Shown: one piece after another, positions 52,983-61,541 of the stretch
How the letters are laid out: each line of letters opens with the position of its first letter
Position numbering within the stretch: position 1 is the stretch's first letter
Source of the DNA: Aeromicrobium endophyticum
GTDB lineage: Bacteria > Actinomycetota > Actinomycetes > Propionibacteriales > Nocardioidaceae
Assembly (NCBI RefSeq): GCF_003586285.1
Contig: NZ_QUBR01000002.1
Location: 1,426,001 to 1,490,000 of the forward strand
Reading direction: 5' to 3'
DNA length: 64,000 nt
Position numbers and translations under genes: made by a program
Notes under the pieces: generated by a model
Databases searched by the model: none
Seen by the model: the letters and a program-made list of their open reading frames with translations, nothing else
What the model was told of the DNA's origin: nothing

Positions 52983-54764
52983 TCAGCGCCGCTGCGCCGC
53001 CATCCGGACCGGTGCGTTGCTCGCCCCGTAGCCGGAGTAGCCGTCCCGACGTTCGACCAGCTCGAAGAAGACCTGCCCGATCGTGCGGGTGTACGCGTTG
53101 AAGTACTCGCCGGTGGCGTCGCGCTCGTACATGACCCCCAGCGCTTCCAGCTCGCGGCGGAACTCGTCATCCAGGCCGAGGCGCGCCTGCAGATCGTCGT
53201 AGTAGTTGGCCGGCACCGGCAGGATCGAGAGGCCGGCGGCCCGGGCCCTGCGAACTGCCGCACGGGTGTCGGAGCACAGCAGAGCGACGTGCTGTGACGA
53301 CGGGCTCTGCTCGTCCGCGGGCGGGACGACGTTGAGCGGTAGCCGCACGTCACTGAGCGGCGACGACATCACACGGCTGCGCACCAGGCCACGAGGGCCC
53401 GCGAGCTCCACGCCGGCGTCCTCGGCTTCCAGACCGAGGACGCTGGTGAAGAACAGCACCGCCTCGTCGAAGTCCTGCCATGGCTGCGCCAGGTTGACGT
53501 GGTCGACGGCCGTCACCAGCTCTCCCGGGGTCCCGGTCCCACCGTGGAACTCGTCGATCCACGCGCTGGTGGGAGGTCCGCCGAAGAAGATCTCGGTGCC
53601 GTCGGGCGCCTCGACCGCTTGGAGCGGCACCTCCGTGGCGTACGTGCGGCGATGGACGACGGGAGCCATCAGCTCCTGCGCTCGCCGACCCGCGGCGTCC
53701 GGCTCCGCCACGAGGAAGCCGATGGCACTGAGATGAGCGACGGTGTCACGCGCATGCTGCTCGTTGAGCACGATGCGCGCGTCGCCGGACGTCCAGAGAC
53801 TGACGGGCTTGGACCGATGCCGCCCCCGGAACGCGAAGCCGAGCTGTCCGAGCATCACCTCGACGTCGCTGGTGTCCTCCGCCTTGACCTCGACGAAGTC
53901 GAAGCCCGTCGGCGGCTCGACGCAGGGCAGGAGTCCCTCGGACCCGTCGAGGATGCGCTGGGACTGATCCTCCAGCCACACCAGCGATCTCAAGGCGTGC
54001 ACGGCGGTGCGGTCCACGTCGGTCTGCCGGAAGGTGTCGTTGAAGACCTCGAGCGACAACGGCCCGTCGTAGCCGGCTCGCAGCACGTGGGCCAGGAAGG
54101 CCGGCAGGTCGAACGACCCCTCCCCCGGGAAGACCCGGTGGTGACGGCTCCACGACAGCACGTCCATCGACAGAGCAGGCGCGTCCGCGAGCTGCAGGAA
54201 GAAGATCTTGTCGCCCGGGATGCGCTCGATGTCAGCGGGGTCGTGGCCTCTCGAGAGGATGTGGAACGAGTCCAGGCAGACTCCGACGTTGGGGTGGTCG
54301 GCCAGCTCGACGATCCGCCACGACCGCCGGTAGTCGTCGACGAAACGGCCCCACGCGAGCGCCTCGAAGGCGATGCGGACGCCATGCTCGGCCGCCACCT
54401 CGCCCATGCGACGCAGCTGGTCCGCCGACACCTGGTCGGAGTCGATCGTCGCGGTGGCCACGTTGCTGCACACGAGCATCGTGTCGATGCCGAGTCGGTT
54501 CATCAGCCGGAACTTGGCCTCGGCCCTCCTCAGGTTCTCGACGAGGGCCTCCTCGCCGACGCCCTCGAAGTCGCGAAACGGCTGGTACAGGTCGAGCGTC
54601 AGACCGAGACGGGCCGCCAGCGCGACGACCTCCTCGGGGCTCAGCTCCGAGGAGACCAGGTCCGGCTCGAACATCTCGATACCGTCGAAGCCGGCCGCGG
54701 ACGCCGCGTGCATCTTGTCGACCAGGCTCCCGCTCAGGCAGACCGTGGCGATCGACCGACGCAT
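52983..54764 (-). CDS. qsuB: 3-dehydroshikimate dehydratase fused to an HPPD-like domain (QsuB/QuiC1 type)
   Basis: A 593-residue two-domain enzyme converting 3-dehydroshikimate to protocatechuate. The N-terminal xylose-isomerase-like TIM barrel (1-270) carries four metal ligands, Glu134 (IAFEALAWG), Asp165 (GVCLDSFH), Gln191 (FFLQLADA) and Glu239 (PLSLEVFND). To my memory these fall on the same numbers as in QuiC1 of Pseudomonas putida. The C-terminal VOC region (about 285-575) keeps a possible His422/His492/Glu568 facial triad of hydroxyphenylpyruvate dioxygenase type. The gene diverges from a TetR regulator across a 16-bp palindrome. A further enzyme to open the protocatechuate ring is not in the window. 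Confidence 0.93.
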   Translation of the reverse strand: MRRSIATVCLSGSLVDKMHAASAAGFDGIEMFEPDLVSSELSPEEVVALAARLGLTLDLYQPFRDFEGVGEEALVENLRRAEAKFRLMNRLGIDTMLVCSNVATATIDSDQVSADQLRRMGEVAAEHGVRIAFEALAWGRFVDDYRRSWRIVELADHPNVGVCLDSFHILSRGHDPADIERIPGDKIFFLQLADAPALSMDVLSWSRHHRVFPGEGSFDLPAFLAHVLRAGYDGPLSLEVFNDTFRQTDVDRTAVHALRSLVWLEDQSQRILDGSEGLLPCVEPPTGFDFVEVKAEDTSDVEVMLGQLGFAFRGRHRSKPVSLWTSGDARIVLNEQHARDTVAHLSAIGFLVAEPDAAGRRAQELMAPVVHRRTYATEVPLQAVEAPDGTEIFFGGPPTSAWIDEFHGGTGTPGELVTAVDHVNLAQPWQDFDEAVLFFTSVLGLEAEDAGVELAGPRGLVRSRVMSSPLSDVRLPLNVVPPADEQSPSSQHVALLCSDTRAAVRRARAAGLSILPVPANYYDDLQARLGLDDEFRRELEALGVMYERDATGEYFNAYTRTIGQVFFELVERRDGYSGYGASNAPVRMAAQRR

Positions 54765-54775
54765 GCGCCCTCCTT

Positions 54776-54791
54776 TGAACTATCTAGTTCA
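54776..54791. promoter_or_regulatory. Palindromic operator between qsuB and its TetR regulator
   Basis: TGAACTATCTAGTTCA is a palindrome with 7-bp perfect arms around TC. It lies 11 bp upstream of the qsuB ATG and 56 bp upstream of the tetR GTG, in one of the most AT-rich stretches of the window. A TetR dimer bound here would stop qsuB transcription. The natural assignment is the adjacent regulator. Confidence 0.65.
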
Positions 54792-54846
54792 TACCTTACT
54801 CGTCGCGCCTCCCCCTCGCGACCGCGCCGCGCGATACGCTCGCACC

Positions 54847-55536
54847 GTGACGACGGGGAAGACCACCACGAGCCGGCCCAGCGGCTCCTCGCGACCAGAA
54901 CGCCAGCGTGATCCCGAGCGCACCAAGGCCGAGCTGCTCCAGATCGCGACCGAGGTCTTCGCCCAGGACGGGTACTCAGGCGCTCGTGTCGACGAGATCG
55001 CCGAGCGCACGAGCACGACCAAGCGGATGATCTACTACTACTTCGGCGGCAAGGAAGGTCTTTACCTCGCCGTGCTGGAGAACGCCTACCAGGGCATCCG
55101 CGCGGCCGAGCAGGGTCTTGACGTCACCGGTCTCGAGCCCGTGGCGGCCATCCGCCGACTCGCGGAGCTCACCTACGACTACCACGTGGAGCACCCTGAG
55201 TTCATCCGCCTGGTCTCGATCGAGAACATCCATCGCGGCGAGTTCATCCGGCGCATCGACGCGCTGCGTTCGATCGCGAACCCGGCGGCAGCCCTCATCG
55301 ACAACATCCTCTCGCGGGGACGGGACGACGGATCCATCCGTCACGACGTCGACCGGATCGACGTCCACATGATGATCAGCTCGTACTGCGTCTTCCAGGT
55401 CGCCAACCAGCACACCTTCGGGCACCTGTTCGGTCGCGACATGGGCGACGAGTCGATGCGGCCGCATCACCGCGCGATGATCGGCGACGTCATCGCCGCC
55501 TGGGTGGCCACTCCCCTCGTCACCGCGCCGAGATGA
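54847..55536 (+). CDS. TetR/AcrR-family regulator of the quinate/shikimate island
   Basis: A 229-residue regulator with a disordered basic N-terminus, a helix-turn-helix ([32 protein letters not shown]) and a helical ligand domain ([29 protein letters not shown]). The GTG at 54847 is 6 nt after TACGCT (leaderless). Known quinate regulators of corynebacteria are LysR type, so a TetR here is a different solution. The inducer is probably a pathway compound such as quinate, shikimate or protocatechuate (inference). Its 3' end overlaps the aroQ stop by 17 bp. Confidence 0.88.
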
Positions 55537-55960
55537 TGTCGGCGAGCCCGCGCAGAGCGAGCTCGTAGCCGCGGACACCGGCCCCGACCACGACCAGCTC
55601 GGCGATGCCGGAGACGTACGAGTGGTGGCGGAACGGCTCCCGACGGTGGATGTTCGTCACGTGCACCTCGGCGACCGGCAGGTCGACACCGGCCAAGGCG
55701 TCGCGGATCGCCACGGAGGTGTGCGAGAAGGCGCCGGGATTGATGACGATCGCACTGCACGTGTCGCGTGCCGCATGGATGGCGTCGACGAGCACACCCT
55801 CGTGATTGCTCTGCACCGCGTCGACGGACAGCCCGAGCTCGCCCGCCGTGCTCCGCACCAGGTCCTCGACGTCCTGAAGAGTGTCGCGCCCGTAGATCGC
55901 GGGCTCTCGCACCCCGAGCAGGTTGAGGTTGGGGCCGTTGACCAGCAGCACGGTGGACAT
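55520..55960 (-). CDS. aroQ: Type II 3-dehydroquinate dehydratase
   Basis: A 146-residue dodecameric-type dehydroquinase. The family pattern is complete: [21 protein letters not shown] (catalytic Arg/Tyr loop), [38 protein letters not shown]. In this cassette it would act in the catabolic direction, from 3-dehydroquinate to 3-dehydroshikimate, as QsuC does. Its ATG overlaps the cyclase stop by one base. It ends the six-gene operon. Confidence 0.93.
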
Positions 55961-56883
55961 CAGAAGATCGCCTTCGGCTCGAGGGGCGACCCGGTGCCAC
56001 CGGTGATCTGCAAGGGGTGCGCGCTGAAGAAGAACTCCCATCGCTGGTGCCGGGAGCACGCATCTGCCAGCCCCTCGAGATCGAACATCTCCCCGATCGC
56101 CATGCCCATGTCGCGCACCAGGACGCAGTGAACCGGCATGCTCTCGGGGCTCTGTGACGGGGCGATCTCCAGTCCCCAGTTATCGCTGGCCACGAAGGCG
56201 ATGCGGTGCTCGGACAACCAGGCCGTGACCGGCAGCGACAGGCCCGGCTCGCGACTCATGTACGCCGAGCGACCCTGGTCACGCAGGGTCCGGAGCCACC
56301 CGGTGCGCACCAGCAGCGTGTCGCCCTGCGACGGCTCGAGCCCCTGTCGCGCGAGGCAGTCGTCGAGCTCCTCGACCGTGACGGCGTGGTCGGCGCTCAG
56401 ACGGTCCACGCCCAGATGCCGCGGAAGGTCGACCAGGAGCCCTCGTCCGTGGACGCCCTCGCGAAGCGCCTCGACCCCGTGCACCGAGGCCCCTCCCGGG
56501 CCGATGGAGTCCACCGGCACGCCGTTGTAGAGGAAGCCGTCGTACGCCACGTGCGACAACGCGTCGAGCTGGGTCGCGCTCTGCGGCGCCATCGTGAGCA
56601 TGTCGTCCATCCACTGGAACCCACCTGGCTCCGGCTCGACGTCAGGCGTCCGGGTCATCACGTGCACGGGGTTGGGACGCACGCCGTCGGAGGGCTGCGG
56701 GCCGTCGGCGTCCAGGGGAAGTCCGAGCGAGACGACCTCACCCACCTGGATCAGTCGTGCGGCTGCCGCGACACGCTCGGGCGTGATCCAGTTGAGGGTC
56801 CCGCGACCGTCGCCCGCACCCCAGCGTCCCCAGTTGGACAGCCGGGCACCCCAGTCGCGAAAGCCCTCCACCGGGTCGCTCAC
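55960..56883 (-). CDS. Cyclase/kynurenine-formamidase-family protein
   Basis: A 307-residue member of the PF04199 cyclase family. The metal/active-site segment is [23 protein letters not shown], the Q-T-Q-x-D-x-x-x-H variant of the classical HxGTHxDxPxH. [21 protein letters not shown] and [12 protein letters not shown] follow. Members hydrolyse formamides, lactones or similar bonds. Placement between the transporter and aroQ suggests it hydrolyses a conjugate or lactone of quinate or shikimate before entry to the pathway, which is speculation. The GTG start overlaps the permease stop. Confidence 0.85.
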
Positions 56884-57869
56884 GACGTGGCAGCTCGCTT
56901 GAGCCTGCCGGTGTTGAACGAGTCGAGCAGCACGGCGAGGAAGATCAGTGCGCCCTGGACGAACTGCACCCAGAACGACGAGACGTTGAGCAGCGTGAGG
57001 CCGTTGTTGATGACACCGATGAGCAGCACACCGACCAGTGTGCCGATCATGCTGCCCTTGCCGCCGAACAGGCTCGTTCCACCGATGACCACGGCCGCGA
57101 TGACCTGCAGCTCCGTGCCGGTCGCGGCGTTGGGCGTCGCCGAGTCGAGGCGACCCACCAGCACGATGGCCGCGACCCCCGCACAGACCGCGGCGATGAC
57201 GTAGGTCGAGAAGATGACGCCCTTGACGTTGATGCCCGCGAGTCGTGCGGCATCGGCATTGCCGCCGACCGCGTACACACGGTGCCCGAAGGTGGTGCGC
57301 GACAGCAGCAGGTGGCCGACGAGGAACAGGAGCACCGTCACGATCGCCGACACCTTGAGCCCAGCGAGGTCGGCGCTGCCGAGCCAGTTGAGCGTCGACG
57401 GCAGGTCGTAGACCGACTCGCCCTGGCTGAACTGCAGGGTCAGACCGCGTGCCATCCCCATGACGGCCAGCGTCACGATGAAGGGTGCGAGCCCCAGCCA
57501 CGCGACCGAGAAGCCGTTGAAGGCTCCCACCAGGACTGCCACGCCCATGACCGCCAGCAGGCCCAGCCAACCGCTGTCGCTGTGGTGAGCCAGCTGTGCG
57601 CCGAGGAACCCGGCCAGGGCCATCGTCGCGCCCACCGAGAGGTCGATGCCGCTCGTGATGATGACGAACGTCGCCCCGACGGCCGCGATGCCGACGACGG
57701 CGCTCTGCGTGACGATGTTCGTCAGGTTGCTGCTCGTCAGGAAGACGTCCGACATGAAGGACAGCGCCACGGAGACGATGATCAGCGCGGCCACGATCGG
57801 CGCGATGTTGCTGCTGAGGGCTCGCTCGACCTGGTGACGCCAGGGCGAGGACTGGGTTGCGGTGGACAC
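56880..57869 (-). CDS. CUT2 (ribose-type) ABC transporter permease
   Basis: A 329-residue permease of the RbsC/XylH family: FVIITSGIDLSVGATMALAGFLGAQLAHH, PFIVTLAVMGMARGLTLQFSQGE, LLSRTTFGHRVYAVGGNADAARLAGINVKGV (coupling helix) and GGTSLFGGKGSMIGTLVGVLLIGVINNGLTLLNVSSFWVQFVQG. GTG 57869 has AGGAG upstream. An ATG at 57920 overlaps the ATPase stop (ATGA) and would add a Pro/Gln-rich 17-residue tail at the N-terminus. It is flanked by shikimate-pathway enzymes on both sides of the operon. Confidence 0.9.
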   Translation of the reverse strand: MSTATQSSPWRHQVERALSSNIAPIVAALIIVSVALSFMSDVFLTSSNLTNIVTQSAVVGIAAVGATFVIITSGIDLSVGATMALAGFLGAQLAHHSDSGWLGLLAVMGVAVLVGAFNGFSVAWLGLAPFIVTLAVMGMARGLTLQFSQGESVYDLPSTLNWLGSADLAGLKVSAIVTVLLFLVGHLLLSRTTFGHRVYAVGGNADAARLAGINVKGVIFSTYVIAAVCAGVAAIVLVGRLDSATPNAATGTELQVIAAVVIGGTSLFGGKGSMIGTLVGVLLIGVINNGLTLLNVSSFWVQFVQGALIFLAVLLDSFNTGRLKRAATS

Positions 57870-57916
57870 GGGACGCTCCTGTGGCTGGGGGGTGGGCTGG
57901 GGGTGGGAGGTGCGGC

Positions 57917-59416
57917 TCATGCGGGAGGCTCGCTCACGGCGCTGCCGCCCGCCGCGAGGTGCAGGATCTTCTCGCGGTCGAACGAGCCGCGGGCGAACTC
58001 CCCGACGACCCGGCCGGCAGCCAGGACGTAGACCCGATCGGCGACTGCGAGCACCTCGTCGGTGTCCGAGCTGCAGACCATCACGGCCGACCCCTTCTCG
58101 GCCAGCGTGAACACGTGCTCGTAGATGCCGGACTTCGCGCCGATGTCGACACCGCGCGTCGGATCGTCGAACAGCACCACCCGCGGCGACATCTCGCTGA
58201 CCCGTCCGACGATGACCTTCTGCTGGTTGCCGCCCGACAGCTTGCCGATCTCCTGATGGACCGAACCGAGCTTGACGTCGTACTTCGACGTGATCTCCTG
58301 CGCCCTGCGCGTCATGACGCCCGACCTCAGCAGACCGCGCCGCGAGACCGGTGCGTAGTCGCCCATCGCGATGTTGGACCGGACGGAGGCGTCGAGGACG
58401 AGTCCCTCGGCCTTGCGATCCTCCGGGACGTAGACGACCCCTGCGGAGCGCGCGGCGGCGATGCTGCCGGTGCGCACGCGGCGACCCGCGACGCTCACCT
58501 CGCCCGAGACGACGTGAGCGACCCCTCCCACGGCCTTCATGAGCTCGGTTCGACCCGACCCGGCGAGGCCCACCAGACCGACGACCTCGCCGCGATCGGC
58601 ATGGATCGACGTGTCCTTGACGCCACGGGCCACGAGCCCTCGAGTGACCAACGCCGGTTCGCCGACGTCTCGCGGCCGCCACGGGTATGCCTGCTCGAGC
58701 TCCTTGGCCAGCATCGACCGGACCAGGGACGGCTCGTCCCACTGTCCGATGGGTTGATCGCCCACGAGGTTTCCGTCGCGCAGCACCACGACCCGATCCG
58801 CCACGTCGAAGAGCTCGTCGAGGTGGTGGGTCACGTAAAGGATCGCTATCCCCTCGTCCCGCAGGGTCCGCACGACCGAGAGCAGGGTCTCGACGTCTCG
58901 CTCCGGCAGCGACGAGGTCGGCTCGTCGAGGATCAGGACCCGTGTGTCGCGGACGAGGCAGCGAGCGATCTCGGCCAGCTGGCGCTGGGAGATCGTCAGG
59001 TCGCGGATCGGTGTGCGCAGGTCGAGCTCGCCCAGCCCCACGCGGCTCAGGCCGGCCTTCGCGCGACGTCGATTCTCCCCCCTGCGGGTGAGGCCCCCGC
59101 GGCTCGACAGGTTGCCGAGCAGGACGTTGTCGAGCAGTGTCATGTCCGGAACGTCGGTCAGCTCCTGGTAGATCACGCTGAGGCCGGCAGCGATCACGTC
59201 CCCCGTCGTGCTGGGCAGCTGCTCGCCACCCAGCACGACGGATCCGGCCGTCGGGGTCTCTGCACCGGCGAGGATCTTGATCAGCGTCGACTTGCCGGCA
59301 CCGTTCTCGCCGACGAGGCCGGTGACCTCGCCGGCGCGGAACGCGAAGTCGACGCCGTCGAGGACCGTGACCGCTCCGAATCGCTTCGAGACTCCCTGGA
59401 CCGAGACGATGGGCAT
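57917..59416 (-). CDS. CUT2 ABC transporter ATP-binding protein (two ATPase domains)
   Basis: A 499-residue RbsA/MglA-type protein. Domain 1 has GENGAGKSTLIKILAG, a signature-like ISQRQLAEIARCLVRD and VLILDEPTSSLPERD. Domain 2 has the degenerate Walker A GLAGSGRTELMKAVGG, LSGGNQQKVIVGR and VLFDDPTRGVDIGAK. This one-good-one-degenerate pattern is normal for the CUT2 family. The ATG at 59416 lies right after the binding-protein stop. It powers uptake by the adjacent permease. Confidence 0.92.
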   Translation of the reverse strand: MPIVSVQGVSKRFGAVTVLDGVDFAFRAGEVTGLVGENGAGKSTLIKILAGAETPTAGSVVLGGEQLPSTTGDVIAAGLSVIYQELTDVPDMTLLDNVLLGNLSSRGGLTRRGENRRRAKAGLSRVGLGELDLRTPIRDLTISQRQLAEIARCLVRDTRVLILDEPTSSLPERDVETLLSVVRTLRDEGIAILYVTHHLDELFDVADRVVVLRDGNLVGDQPIGQWDEPSLVRSMLAKELEQAYPWRPRDVGEPALVTRGLVARGVKDTSIHADRGEVVGLVGLAGSGRTELMKAVGGVAHVVSGEVSVAGRRVRTGSIAAARSAGVVYVPEDRKAEGLVLDASVRSNIAMGDYAPVSRRGLLRSGVMTRRAQEITSKYDVKLGSVHQEIGKLSGGNQQKVIVGRVSEMSPRVVLFDDPTRGVDIGAKSGIYEHVFTLAEKGSAVMVCSSDTDEVLAVADRVYVLAAGRVVGEFARGSFDREKILHLAAGGSAVSEPPA

Positions 59417-59417
59417 G

Positions 59418-60476
59418 TCAGCCAACCTGATCAGCCCAGATTCCGTAGTCCTTGACCTCCGCCGAGTCGATGTTGGCCGGCGTGATGATCATGCCGGGCC
59501 ACTCGATGAATCCCGAGACGTCCTTGCCGGCCTCGATCTCGGCGATCTTGTCCATCACGAGCTCGGACAGCTTGATGGGGTTCGAGCTGACCGTCATGTC
59601 CTGACGACCGGCGCGGATGTCCGCGATCGCCGGAGCGGGCGCGTCGTTGCCCGTGACGAAGATGTGTCCGGGCTCTCCGACCTTCGTCAGCAGGCCTGCG
59701 GCCTCGATGGCCTTGGTCGCACCCTGGGCCTCGCTGTCGTTCGACGTGAAGACGGCCTCGACCCCCTTGTGCGCCTGGAGCAGGTCGGTCATCACGCGGT
59801 ACGTCTTGTCGGTGTCGAAGCCCCCGTCCTGGCGCGCCACGACGTCGATGTCGGGGTACTTGCTGATGATGTTGTTGAAGCCCTTCTCCCGGTCGGTCGC
59901 CGCCGAGCTTCCCGCGATCCCCTGGATGTCGAGGATCTTGCCGGACGGTGACCCGTTCTTCTTCGTGAGGAAGTCGACGATGCCCTGGGCGCTCTGCTCG
60001 CCGATCGTGACGTGATTCATGGCGACCGTGAACTGGACGTCGTCGGACTTGATCGTGTCGCTGATCGCGATGACGGTGGCTCCCGCAGCCTTCGCGGCCT
60101 TGACCGCGGGGACGATCGCCGAGGCGTCGGCCGGGCTGATCACGATGTACTTGGCGCCCTTGGTGATCAGGTTCTGGATGTCGTTGACCTGGGTGTTGTT
60201 GTCACCGTTGGAGTTGGTCTGCAACAGCTTGAACCCGTGCGACGTGGCGCCCTTCTCGAGACCCTTGATGAGTCCCGTGAAGTAGGGGTTGGACAGGGTG
60301 TAGCCGGAGTAGCCGACGACGACATCACCGTCGCCACCGGACCCCGCACCGTCCGAGCTCGTCGCGCAGCCCGACATGGCCGTCACGAGCACGGCTGCCG
60401 ACGCGAGCGCGGCGATCTTCCATGAACGTCCCGCCCGACGGTCGGCGCGGTCGGTCGTTGTCTTCCAGCGGATCAT
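59418..60476 (-). CDS. CUT2 periplasmic-binding-type lipoprotein (RbsB family)
   Basis: A 352-residue lipoprotein with lipobox VTAMSGC. The type I periplasmic binding fold is evident from VVVGYSGYTLSNPYFTGLIKGLEKGATSHGFKLLQTNSNGDNNTQVNDIQNLITKGAKYIVISPADASAIVPAVKAAKAAGATVIAISD and, later, GVEAVFTSNDSEAQGATKAIE. Members bind sugars, polyols or autoinducer-2. Here the operon argues for a cyclitol acid such as quinate or shikimate. The ATG follows GAAGGAACGACATC. Confidence 0.92.
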   Translation of the reverse strand: MIRWKTTTDRADRRAGRSWKIAALASAAVLVTAMSGCATSSDGAGSGGDGDVVVGYSGYTLSNPYFTGLIKGLEKGATSHGFKLLQTNSNGDNNTQVNDIQNLITKGAKYIVISPADASAIVPAVKAAKAAGATVIAISDTIKSDDVQFTVAMNHVTIGEQSAQGIVDFLTKKNGSPSGKILDIQGIAGSSAATDREKGFNNIISKYPDIDVVARQDGGFDTDKTYRVMTDLLQAHKGVEAVFTSNDSEAQGATKAIEAAGLLTKVGEPGHIFVTGNDAPAPAIADIRAGRQDMTVSSNPIKLSELVMDKIAEIEAGKDVSGFIEWPGMIITPANIDSAEVKDYGIWADQVG

Positions 60477-60588
60477 GATGTCGTTCCTTCTTCGTTCCGG
60501 CGCAGGAGCGCCTGGTCGTCTCAGTGTTGCCCTTCGGAGCGGGAGCCTCGAAGGAAAGTCGCACCGGCCGCGGCCCGTGCGTCCCGAG

Positions 60589-61476
60589 TCATTCGGTGGC
60601 GGCGGCCTCCTCGGCCTCCAGGAGGGCCAGCAGGTCGGCGCGCACGCGAGCCTGGTCCGGTTCCATGCCGGTCAGGATCCGGAGGCTGTCGATGGCCTGG
60701 CCGACCGCCATCATGGAGCCGTCGATGACGTCCCGTCCCGACGACCGCCCCGCTCGCACCAGCTCGGTCTCGACGGGCCGGTAGACGATCTCGGCGATCC
60801 ATGCCTGCGGCGACAGCCTCGACGGCTCGAGGGGAAGGCCAGGATGCATCGCCATGCCGGTGGGTGTGGCGTGGACGACCCCGTCGAACTCGGACCATTC
60901 GCCGTCCAGGTCGCCGGACGCCATGCGGATCGTCTGGCCCAGGAACATGGGGGCGTACCGGTCCACCAGGTTGCGGGCACGCATCGGGTCGAGGTCGCTG
61001 ATGACGAGGCTCTCGACACCGAGTCGCAGGAGAGCATAGGCCGTGGCGGCACCGGCGCCGCCCGACCCGAGCTGCAGCACCGAACGACGCGGCGCATGAC
61101 GCAGACGACTCATGAACGAGCTGCTGAAGCCGGTCCAGTCGGTGTTGTGCCCCGTCACGCCGTCGTCTCCGAACACGAGCAGGTTCGCTGCCCCGATGCT
61201 GCGGGCGTCACGGCTGAGGCCGTCGATGAACGACAGGACACGCTGCTTGTAGGGGTGAGTGACGTTGAGCCCGGCGAAACCTGCTGCCGCGAGCCCGCGG
61301 ACGAACGACTCGAGACCCTGGTCGTCGAGGGTCTCCCCCGCGATGTCGAAGAGCTCGTAGGAGTAGTCCAGGCCCAGCCGCCGGCCTTCCATCACGTGCA
61401 TGGCGGGCGTCAAGGACTGGCCGATCCCCTCGCCCAGGAGCCCCACGCGGAAGCGGAGGGTGGAGCGCTGCGTCAT
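60589..61476 (-). CDS. qsuD: Quinate/shikimate dehydrogenase (AroE/QsuD family)
   Basis: A 295-residue AroE-fold enzyme at the head of the catabolic operon. The substrate loop is GIGQSLTPAMH, with Ser-x-Thr where biosynthetic AroE has Ser-x-Ser; this change is associated with quinate use in the corynebacterial enzyme (recalled). The catalytic Lys is in NVTHPYKQRV and Asp in GHNTDWTGFSSS. The nucleotide loop LGSGGAGAATAYAL is followed by VISDLDPMRARNL, whose acidic residue favours NAD over NADP. A catabolic oxidation to 3-dehydroquinate or 3-dehydroshikimate is therefore likely. Confidence 0.88.
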   Translation of the reverse strand: MTQRSTLRFRVGLLGEGIGQSLTPAMHVMEGRRLGLDYSYELFDIAGETLDDQGLESFVRGLAAAGFAGLNVTHPYKQRVLSFIDGLSRDARSIGAANLLVFGDDGVTGHNTDWTGFSSSFMSRLRHAPRRSVLQLGSGGAGAATAYALLRLGVESLVISDLDPMRARNLVDRYAPMFLGQTIRMASGDLDGEWSEFDGVVHATPTGMAMHPGLPLEPSRLSPQAWIAEIVYRPVETELVRAGRSSGRDVIDGSMMAVGQAIDSLRILTGMEPDQARVRADLLALLEAEEAAATE

Positions 61477-61490
61477 GCCGTCATGTCCTC

Positions 61491-61541
61491 ACTCGTGTAC
61501 GTACGAGTTAGTACATTAAGTGTGACGGCACTCACTGTCAA
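61491..61541 (-). promoter_or_regulatory. Consensus promoter and operator of the quinate/shikimate operon
   Basis: On the minus strand, TTGACA (61541-61536), a 17-bp spacer and TAATGT (61518-61513) make the most consensus-like promoter I found in the window. Just downstream of the -10, ACTCGT (61491-61496) and ACGAGT (61503-61508) form an 18-bp operator-like inverted repeat. A repressor there would block initiation. The site differs in sequence from the operator at 54776, so a second regulator is possible. Confidence 0.7.

Follow-up and report, generated by a model that had tools for sequence, protein, structure and literature searches.

An ATP-binding cassette (ABC) importer of the CUT2 family, encoded in a 64,000-nucleotide stretch of the Aeromicrobium endophyticum genome (contig NZ_QUBR01000002.1, positions 1,426,001 to 1,490,000; hereafter the window, whose own numbering is used throughout), is part of a quinate/shikimate cassette that is conserved and in which an operator motif is shared. 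It is highly likely that the importer is co-regulated with the quinate/shikimate pathway and feeds it.

The first transcription unit of the cassette lies on the minus strand and encodes, in order, a QsuD-like quinate/shikimate dehydrogenase (60589..61476; PF08501), a CUT2 solute-binding lipoprotein (SBP; 59418..60476; PF13407, 2.9e-53), a CUT2 double ATPase (57917..59416; two PF00005 stretches), a CUT2 permease (56880..57920; PF02653, 2.7e-47), a PF04199 “cyclase family” hydrolase of the metal-dependent esterase/lactonase type with a GTG start (55960..56883), and a type II 3-dehydroquinate dehydratase (dehydroquinase; 55520..55960; PF01220). A TetR-family regulator gene (54847..55536, plus strand; PF00440 and PF17938, TetR_C_29) stands tail to tail with the dehydroquinase gene and divergent from the minus-strand gene of a QsuB/QuiC-type two-domain 3-dehydroshikimate dehydratase (52983..54764; PF01261 and glyoxalase domains). 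Because the plus-strand TetR gene separates the dehydratase from the importer unit, the dehydratase forms a second transcription unit, which rules out the single operon described in an earlier note on this DNA. That note also had the importer overlapping its neighbours by a few bases; this is correct for ATPase/permease and permease/hydrolase (4 bp each), but a 112-bp gap separates the dehydrogenase and SBP genes. SBP and ATPase are spaced by 1 bp, and hydrolase and dehydroquinase overlap by 1 bp. On the minus strand, the six enzyme and importer genes named there each read through with no internal stop, and their names hold by family profile; the hydrolase and the TetR regulator had been overlooked.

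Evidence for co-regulation came from loci that lack the importer. The dehydratase was matched at E <= 1e-60 in 49 of 394 genomes of the class, the window's own included, and one dehydratase locus from each of the other 48 (L044-L091), flanked by roughly 9 kb on either side as far as the contig reached, served as a comparison set. TetR relatives (51-69% identity) are present in 26 of these 48 loci. A palindrome was first noticed by eye in upstream regions, the window's among them, and a matrix built from 25 sites in the 26 TetR-bearing loci (L061 has no good site) ranked the window's two promoters highest. Since the seed consensus was not blind, the window having been seen, the motif was relearned de novo. 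With only the 26 TetR-bearing loci as input, expectation-maximisation yielded AATGTACTAGCTAGTACATT (log-likelihood 510.8), whereas the 22 TetR-less loci gave a different, repetitive motif (167.1). The top two places of the de novo motif in the window are 61498-61517 (score 31.7), in the importer-unit promoter 21 bp before the dehydrogenase start, and 54774-54793 (22.8), between the regulator and dehydratase genes; the best unrelated place scores 6.9 and the maximum of 20 two-mer shuffles is 13.2. ATGWACNNNNNNGTWC occurs four times in the 4.03-Mb genome, twice at this locus, and its reversed control once. Because a motif learned from importer-less loci picks out both window promoters, the importer very probably belongs to the quinate/shikimate regulon, the TetR protein being the predicted binder of both sites. 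Beside the TetR gene, the same palindrome marks the actinobacterial quinate loci without the importer, a candidate regulon of its own.

The cassette is not confined to this genome. A scan with the binding protein, covering one genome each for 84,980 species and finding close relatives only, returned eight loci: three Aeromicrobium metagenome-assembled genomes (MAGs), a Modestobacter MAG, Leucobacter weissii, a Microbacteriaceae MAG, Microbacterium sp. CH12i and Alpinimonas psychrophila (five are MAGs of one series, RYN, and three are strains). The earlier note had asked whether the operon recurs in other genomes, and the order SBP-ATPase-permease-hydrolase, with a TetR relative, is found in 8/8 of these loci, which span three actinobacterial orders. 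Dehydrogenase and dehydratase are present in 7/8, the eighth, L006, being a 6.9-kb contig, and dehydroquinase in 5/8. Upstream of the unit leading into the importer, 6/6 loci with that region covered (L003-L008) have a site with a score of 16.9 or more; in L006 it stands some 340 bp ahead of the SBP gene and counts as upstream of that unit if no gene lies between. For L001 and L002, where the region upstream of the importer unit falls outside the covered stretch, the dehydratase promoters score 19.5 and 9.4.

CUT2 systems are common, and the importer might therefore be a chance neighbour that serves an unrelated sugar. A possible case of this kind is seen in the comparison set: L048 (484-4297), which has no TetR relative, carries a CUT2-type system of another kind, with an ATPase (38%) and two permeases (32%) encoded a few kb away from the dehydratase and a LacI-like gene between, and this system may be such a chance neighbour. 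For the window's importer, however, the conservation in 8/8 loci of three orders and the operator-like sites in the window and at 6/6 loci led us to reject this very improbable explanation.

Although uniqueness to this genome is thus rejected, the cassette is rare. It was found in 2/293 genomes of the order (E <= 1e-60), 2/394 of the class (E <= 1e-70), 1/199 of the family of G481 (E <= 1e-70) and 5/98 relatives (E <= 1e-100, with nine matched at E <= 1e-35); these searches overlap in genomes, with G000 and G070 recurring and G840, G844, G857 and G727 looking like the genomes of L001-L003 and L008. In Alpinimonas psychrophila (L008, 6500-15200) the G+C content of the cassette is 51%, compared with 60-61% for the flanks, which would fit a recent acquisition. 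In Microbacterium sp. CH12i (L007, 6974-8739) the dehydratase match falls into two pieces that overlap, through a frameshift or a sequencing error.

All three enzymes of a complete route from quinate or shikimate to protocatechuate were identified by sequence, in agreement with the earlier note. The dehydratase keeps 10/10 QsuB active-site residues at identical numbering (residue list from PMC7442255). Together with these residues, its TIM-barrel and HPPD-like domain architecture is that of the two-domain QsuB/QuiC1 enzymes, and its only solved relative at E <= 1e-20, 5hmq, is called QuiC1 in the same paper; against the NF042435 equivalog it scores 554 bits over the full length, below the cut-off of 1200. 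The dehydrogenase exceeds the cut-off of the shikimate dehydrogenase subfamily NF009201 (334.6 against 235 bits) and falls below that of NF010631, the NAD quinate/shikimate dehydrogenase equivalog (220.5 against 515). Its best solved relative is the quinate/shikimate dehydrogenase 3jyo, with the stretch DLD after the glycine loop in both. We use the names QuiC-like and QsuD-like because the NCBIfam equivalog cut-offs are not reached. The dehydroquinase scores 186.4 bits against TIGR01088 (cut-off 169.85); it is not the sole one, since a second type II gene lies elsewhere in the genome, in which a search for type I dehydroquinase gave no match. The dioxygenase family to which protocatechuate 3,4-dioxygenase belongs also has three matches in the genome; two lie next to each other, and the open reading frames (ORFs) around them, named by eye, resemble a pca cluster, which suggests that protocatechuate from the cassette could plausibly be degraded by ring-cleavage genes elsewhere in the genome. 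One comparison genome carries two different dehydratase copies about 12 kb apart (L054, 621 and 12969), with 43% and 65% identity to that of the window.

Transporters beside dehydratases elsewhere bear on what the importer carries. A ShiA-like carrier, meaning one similar to the carriers of two importer loci discussed below (L004 and L011; 319 and 312 of 538 bits with the shikimate transporter model, a general metabolite/H+ symporter model giving them higher scores), was found in 23/48 comparison loci and in 20 of the 26 TetR-bearing ones, and this CUT2 binding protein in 0/48. The queries came from the window and its relatives, and absences mean less where regions are short (down to 5.3 kb). 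The importer also very probably shares its regulon with these TetR-bearing loci, and 8/10 importer loci have no carrier in the stretch covered. These observations favour the earlier note's proposal, the main rival to ours, that the importer carries free quinate and/or shikimate and that the hydrolase has a side function, for example releasing quinate from plant esters. We regard this rival as serious but on balance unlikely, for reasons that emerge below from the hydrolase, the binding pocket and two variant loci.

Other transporter types occur in the same position. TRAP-type (DctP; tripartite ATP-independent periplasmic) binding proteins, confirmed by Pfam in the two loci so tested and similar by eye in others, lie near an actinobacterial dehydratase and dehydrogenase (L058, 4539-5555; L073, 8385-9380). 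On proteobacterial plasmids (five regions read of 318 records), dehydratases of this kind have tripartite tricarboxylate, TRAP and amino-acid-type ABC genes in their vicinity, one region combining a TRAP binding-protein gene with a major facilitator superfamily (MFS) gene. The amino-acid-type ABC importer genes of Rhizobium phaseoli (L143, 3288-9917) have aroQ, a QuiC-like gene and a Gfo/Idh oxidoreductase as neighbours and are candidates for a further ABC route that serves quinate-type acids; like the window, this locus places an ABC importer beside dehydroquinase and dehydratase, but the ABC family is another one and the oxidoreductase is of the Gfo/Idh type. Since carriers, TRAP, tripartite tricarboxylate and ABC systems all occur beside dehydratases, the transporter of the quinate/shikimate pathway looks interchangeable. 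The earlier statement that known uptake is by MFS carriers may hold for characterised systems, but genes of these other types also lie beside dehydratases. An ABC importer beside a dehydratase is not unique; what is new is the CUT2 importer with the hydrolase.

The hydrolase scores 73.9 bits against PF04199 (cut-off 23.1), and among solved structures it has a single relative at E <= 0.01, namely 5ibz, the MGS0169 esterase. MGS0169 is a metagenomic enzyme from an activity screen, and divalent metals, above all Mn, stimulate its esterase activity; it has in common with trans-dienelactone hydrolase the modified motif Gln-x-x-x-Gln-x-Asp-x-x-x-His, and alanine mutants showed that Gln127, Gln131, Asp133, Arg87, His286 and Glu299 matter, the His137 mutant being insoluble (PMC5341072). 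The window's hydrolase has the same Gln-Gln-Asp-His site as QxxxQxDxxxH at 101-111 (Q101, Q105, D107, H111), along with R69, H252 and E265. The spacing H252-E265 equals that of His286-Glu299, and R69 is the counterpart of Arg87 as read off the alignment; in the hydrolases of L006 and L008 the first Gln of the motif is replaced by His. These features hint at a metal-dependent esterase/lactonase of the MGS0169 type. An identity as IolN was considered, with nothing useful in the literature searched. In Streptomyces chartreusis (L098, 6796-8948), a hydrolase relative directly follows iolM (scyllo-inosose 3-dehydrogenase) and is perhaps a ring-opening hydrolase of cyclitol ketones.

Because the hydrolase is found in 0/48 dehydratase loci without this SBP, it tracks the importer rather than the pathway, an association that import of the free acids leaves unexplained. 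The hydrolase likely handles what the importer brings in, and if so the solute would be a lactone or ester.

The importer itself is a full CUT2 system, as the earlier note had it: a Peripla_BP_4 SBP, a tandem ATPase and a BPD_transp_2 permease in one unit, with matching folds, although fold comparison does not distinguish the ligand. All three proteins differ from RbsABC in scoring below the curated Rbs cut-offs (RbsB 135/337, RbsA 383.5/745, RbsC 221.4/398 bits). The contacts to ribose in RbsB-type binders, which we take to be N13, D89, R90, R141, N190, D215 and Q235, were compared by alignment, the last two via 2ioy. N63, R196, N246 and D278 of the SBP retain ribose contacts, whereas D89, R90 and Q235 are replaced by S139, D140 and S298 in 9/9 rows. 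The pocket has thus lost the Asp-Arg pair of RbsB and gained one Asp, becoming one charge more negative on balance and therefore suited to a neutral solute, a weak second hint. A carboxylate-binding Arg/Lys absent from RbsB had been predicted for cyclitol acids; at these contact positions the nine rows contain no new Arg or Lys and have lost one Arg, so that this prediction is not supported, which also counts against free acids as the cargo.

In the tree, the importer binding proteins form one clade (nine rows, 99/98; 100/100 with a 49%-identical relative), which answers the earlier question of whether the RbsB-like proteins beside qsuB/aroQ group together. The clade is separate from the ribose-type binders of known structure included in the tree. 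The earlier note had named clustering with characterised inositol or ribose binders as its refutation; such clustering was not seen on the ribose side, the tree covering ribose-type binders but not inositol binders such as the myo-inositol binder 4irx. The nearest outside relatives of the clade in the tree are Caballeronia proteins. One of them belongs to a 44%-identical CUT2 importer of Caballeronia sp. M1242 (L094, 6665-13472) that probably imports methylthioribose, as it is clustered with mtnK and mtnA.

CUT2 proteins typically carry neutral sugars and cyclitols. The solute could accordingly be a different neutral compound, a cyclitol or something sugar-like, that unrecognised steps would turn into an intermediate of the quinate pathway, as the methylthioribose neighbourhood of a near SBP relative and the hydrolase relative beside iolM might suggest. 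Yet no further enzyme is common to the loci: among 232 further ORFs of at least 120 aa in ten loci, the only families shared beyond Aeromicrobium are the carrier of L004/L011 and loosely similar short-chain dehydrogenases/reductases (SDRs; L004, L005, L011). We consider this explanation improbable.

Two importer loci show variations. In L011 (Aeromicrobium, G070), the importer (49% identity for the SBP, 59% and 61% for the other components) and the hydrolase (51%) are arranged as in the window, with a dehydroquinase (47%) next to them, while an SDR, a short TIM barrel (weak against the QuiC model, 32.6 of 1200 bits) and a LacI regulator stand in for dehydrogenase, dehydratase and TetR; the swapped-in genes presumably perform the same steps. 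That importer and hydrolase stay together here suggests that the hydrolase acts on the imported solute. L011 also holds a ShiA-like carrier. In the Modestobacter MAG (L004, 10403-13291), the importer cassette has two notable neighbours: a type-B carboxylesterase, which may act on esters of quinate or shikimate, and a ShiA-like carrier that has an operator-like site to itself. The side-by-side presence of importer and carrier in these 2/10 importer loci is a further point against free acids as the importer's cargo, although it fits different affinities as well as different solutes.

Based on these findings, we propose a TetR-controlled regulon that would serve uptake and catabolism of a quinate/shikimate-type compound. 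First, the CUT2 importer would bind the solute outside the cell and pump it in with ATP. The PF04199 hydrolase would act first on the imported compound, splitting a lactone or ester to give quinate or shikimate. Dehydrogenase, dehydroquinase and QsuB-type dehydratase would then generate protocatechuate, and finally ring-cleavage genes elsewhere in the genome would degrade it. That the solute is a neutral lactone or ester of quinate or shikimate, opened by the hydrolase, is in our view an evenly balanced proposition. Several points weigh against it. It presupposes that these organisms meet quinate or shikimate lactones in nature. His155, which does not vary among the nine rows, might contribute to the binding of a carboxylate. 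The window's genome gave no match to a ShiA-like carrier at E <= 1e-20 in a search without a positive control, so the importer may have to carry free acids. Relatives of the hydrolase (43-51% identity) occur in varied settings without this importer or the dehydratase (13 places besides the window and G070, eight genome regions read by eye), and on plasmids (four regions of 16 records read) their context is likewise varied, with no single pathway. L011, the weightiest locus for an importer-hydrolase module, has no operator site above 5.2, and several positions of its pocket are different, so that it may take up another solute. A broader form of the masked-solute proposal, which we advance tentatively and with slightly less confidence, is that importer and hydrolase constitute a portable uptake-and-unmask module for neutral quinate/shikimate lactones or esters, making for a new CUT2 solute class, a new entry enzyme of the quinate pathway and a TetR operator that defines a regulon across actinobacteria.

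The arrangement is reminiscent of qsuABCD of Corynebacterium glutamicum, also a quinate/shikimate operon with a QsuB dehydratase and a QsuD dehydrogenase (PMC7442255, PMC11258901). There, QsuA is called a quinate transporter and QsuR is a chorismate-responsive LysR regulator (PMC11258901); the window instead has a CUT2 ABC importer and a regulator of the TetR family, and a PF04199 hydrolase as well. Shikimate uptake in R. leguminosarum is by the MFS carrier RL4709 (PMC3333776). Also related are the actinobacterial quinate loci without the importer, which have the same enzymes, TetR relatives and operator motif as the window but differ in their usual ShiA-like carrier and in lacking the hydrolase. 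Among the titles and abstract openings listed from open-licence literature, at most 25 papers to a listing, none described CUT2-type import of quinate or shikimate.

Plant carbon is plentiful in the form of quinate, shikimate and the esters of both. If correct, our proposal would provide an ABC route for these compounds and extend the CUT2 family beyond sugars and simple cyclitols. It would also assign a function to “cyclase family” proteins, a class whose substrates are mostly unknown, and offer a testable TetR regulon together with a possible sensor for quinate-pathway compounds.

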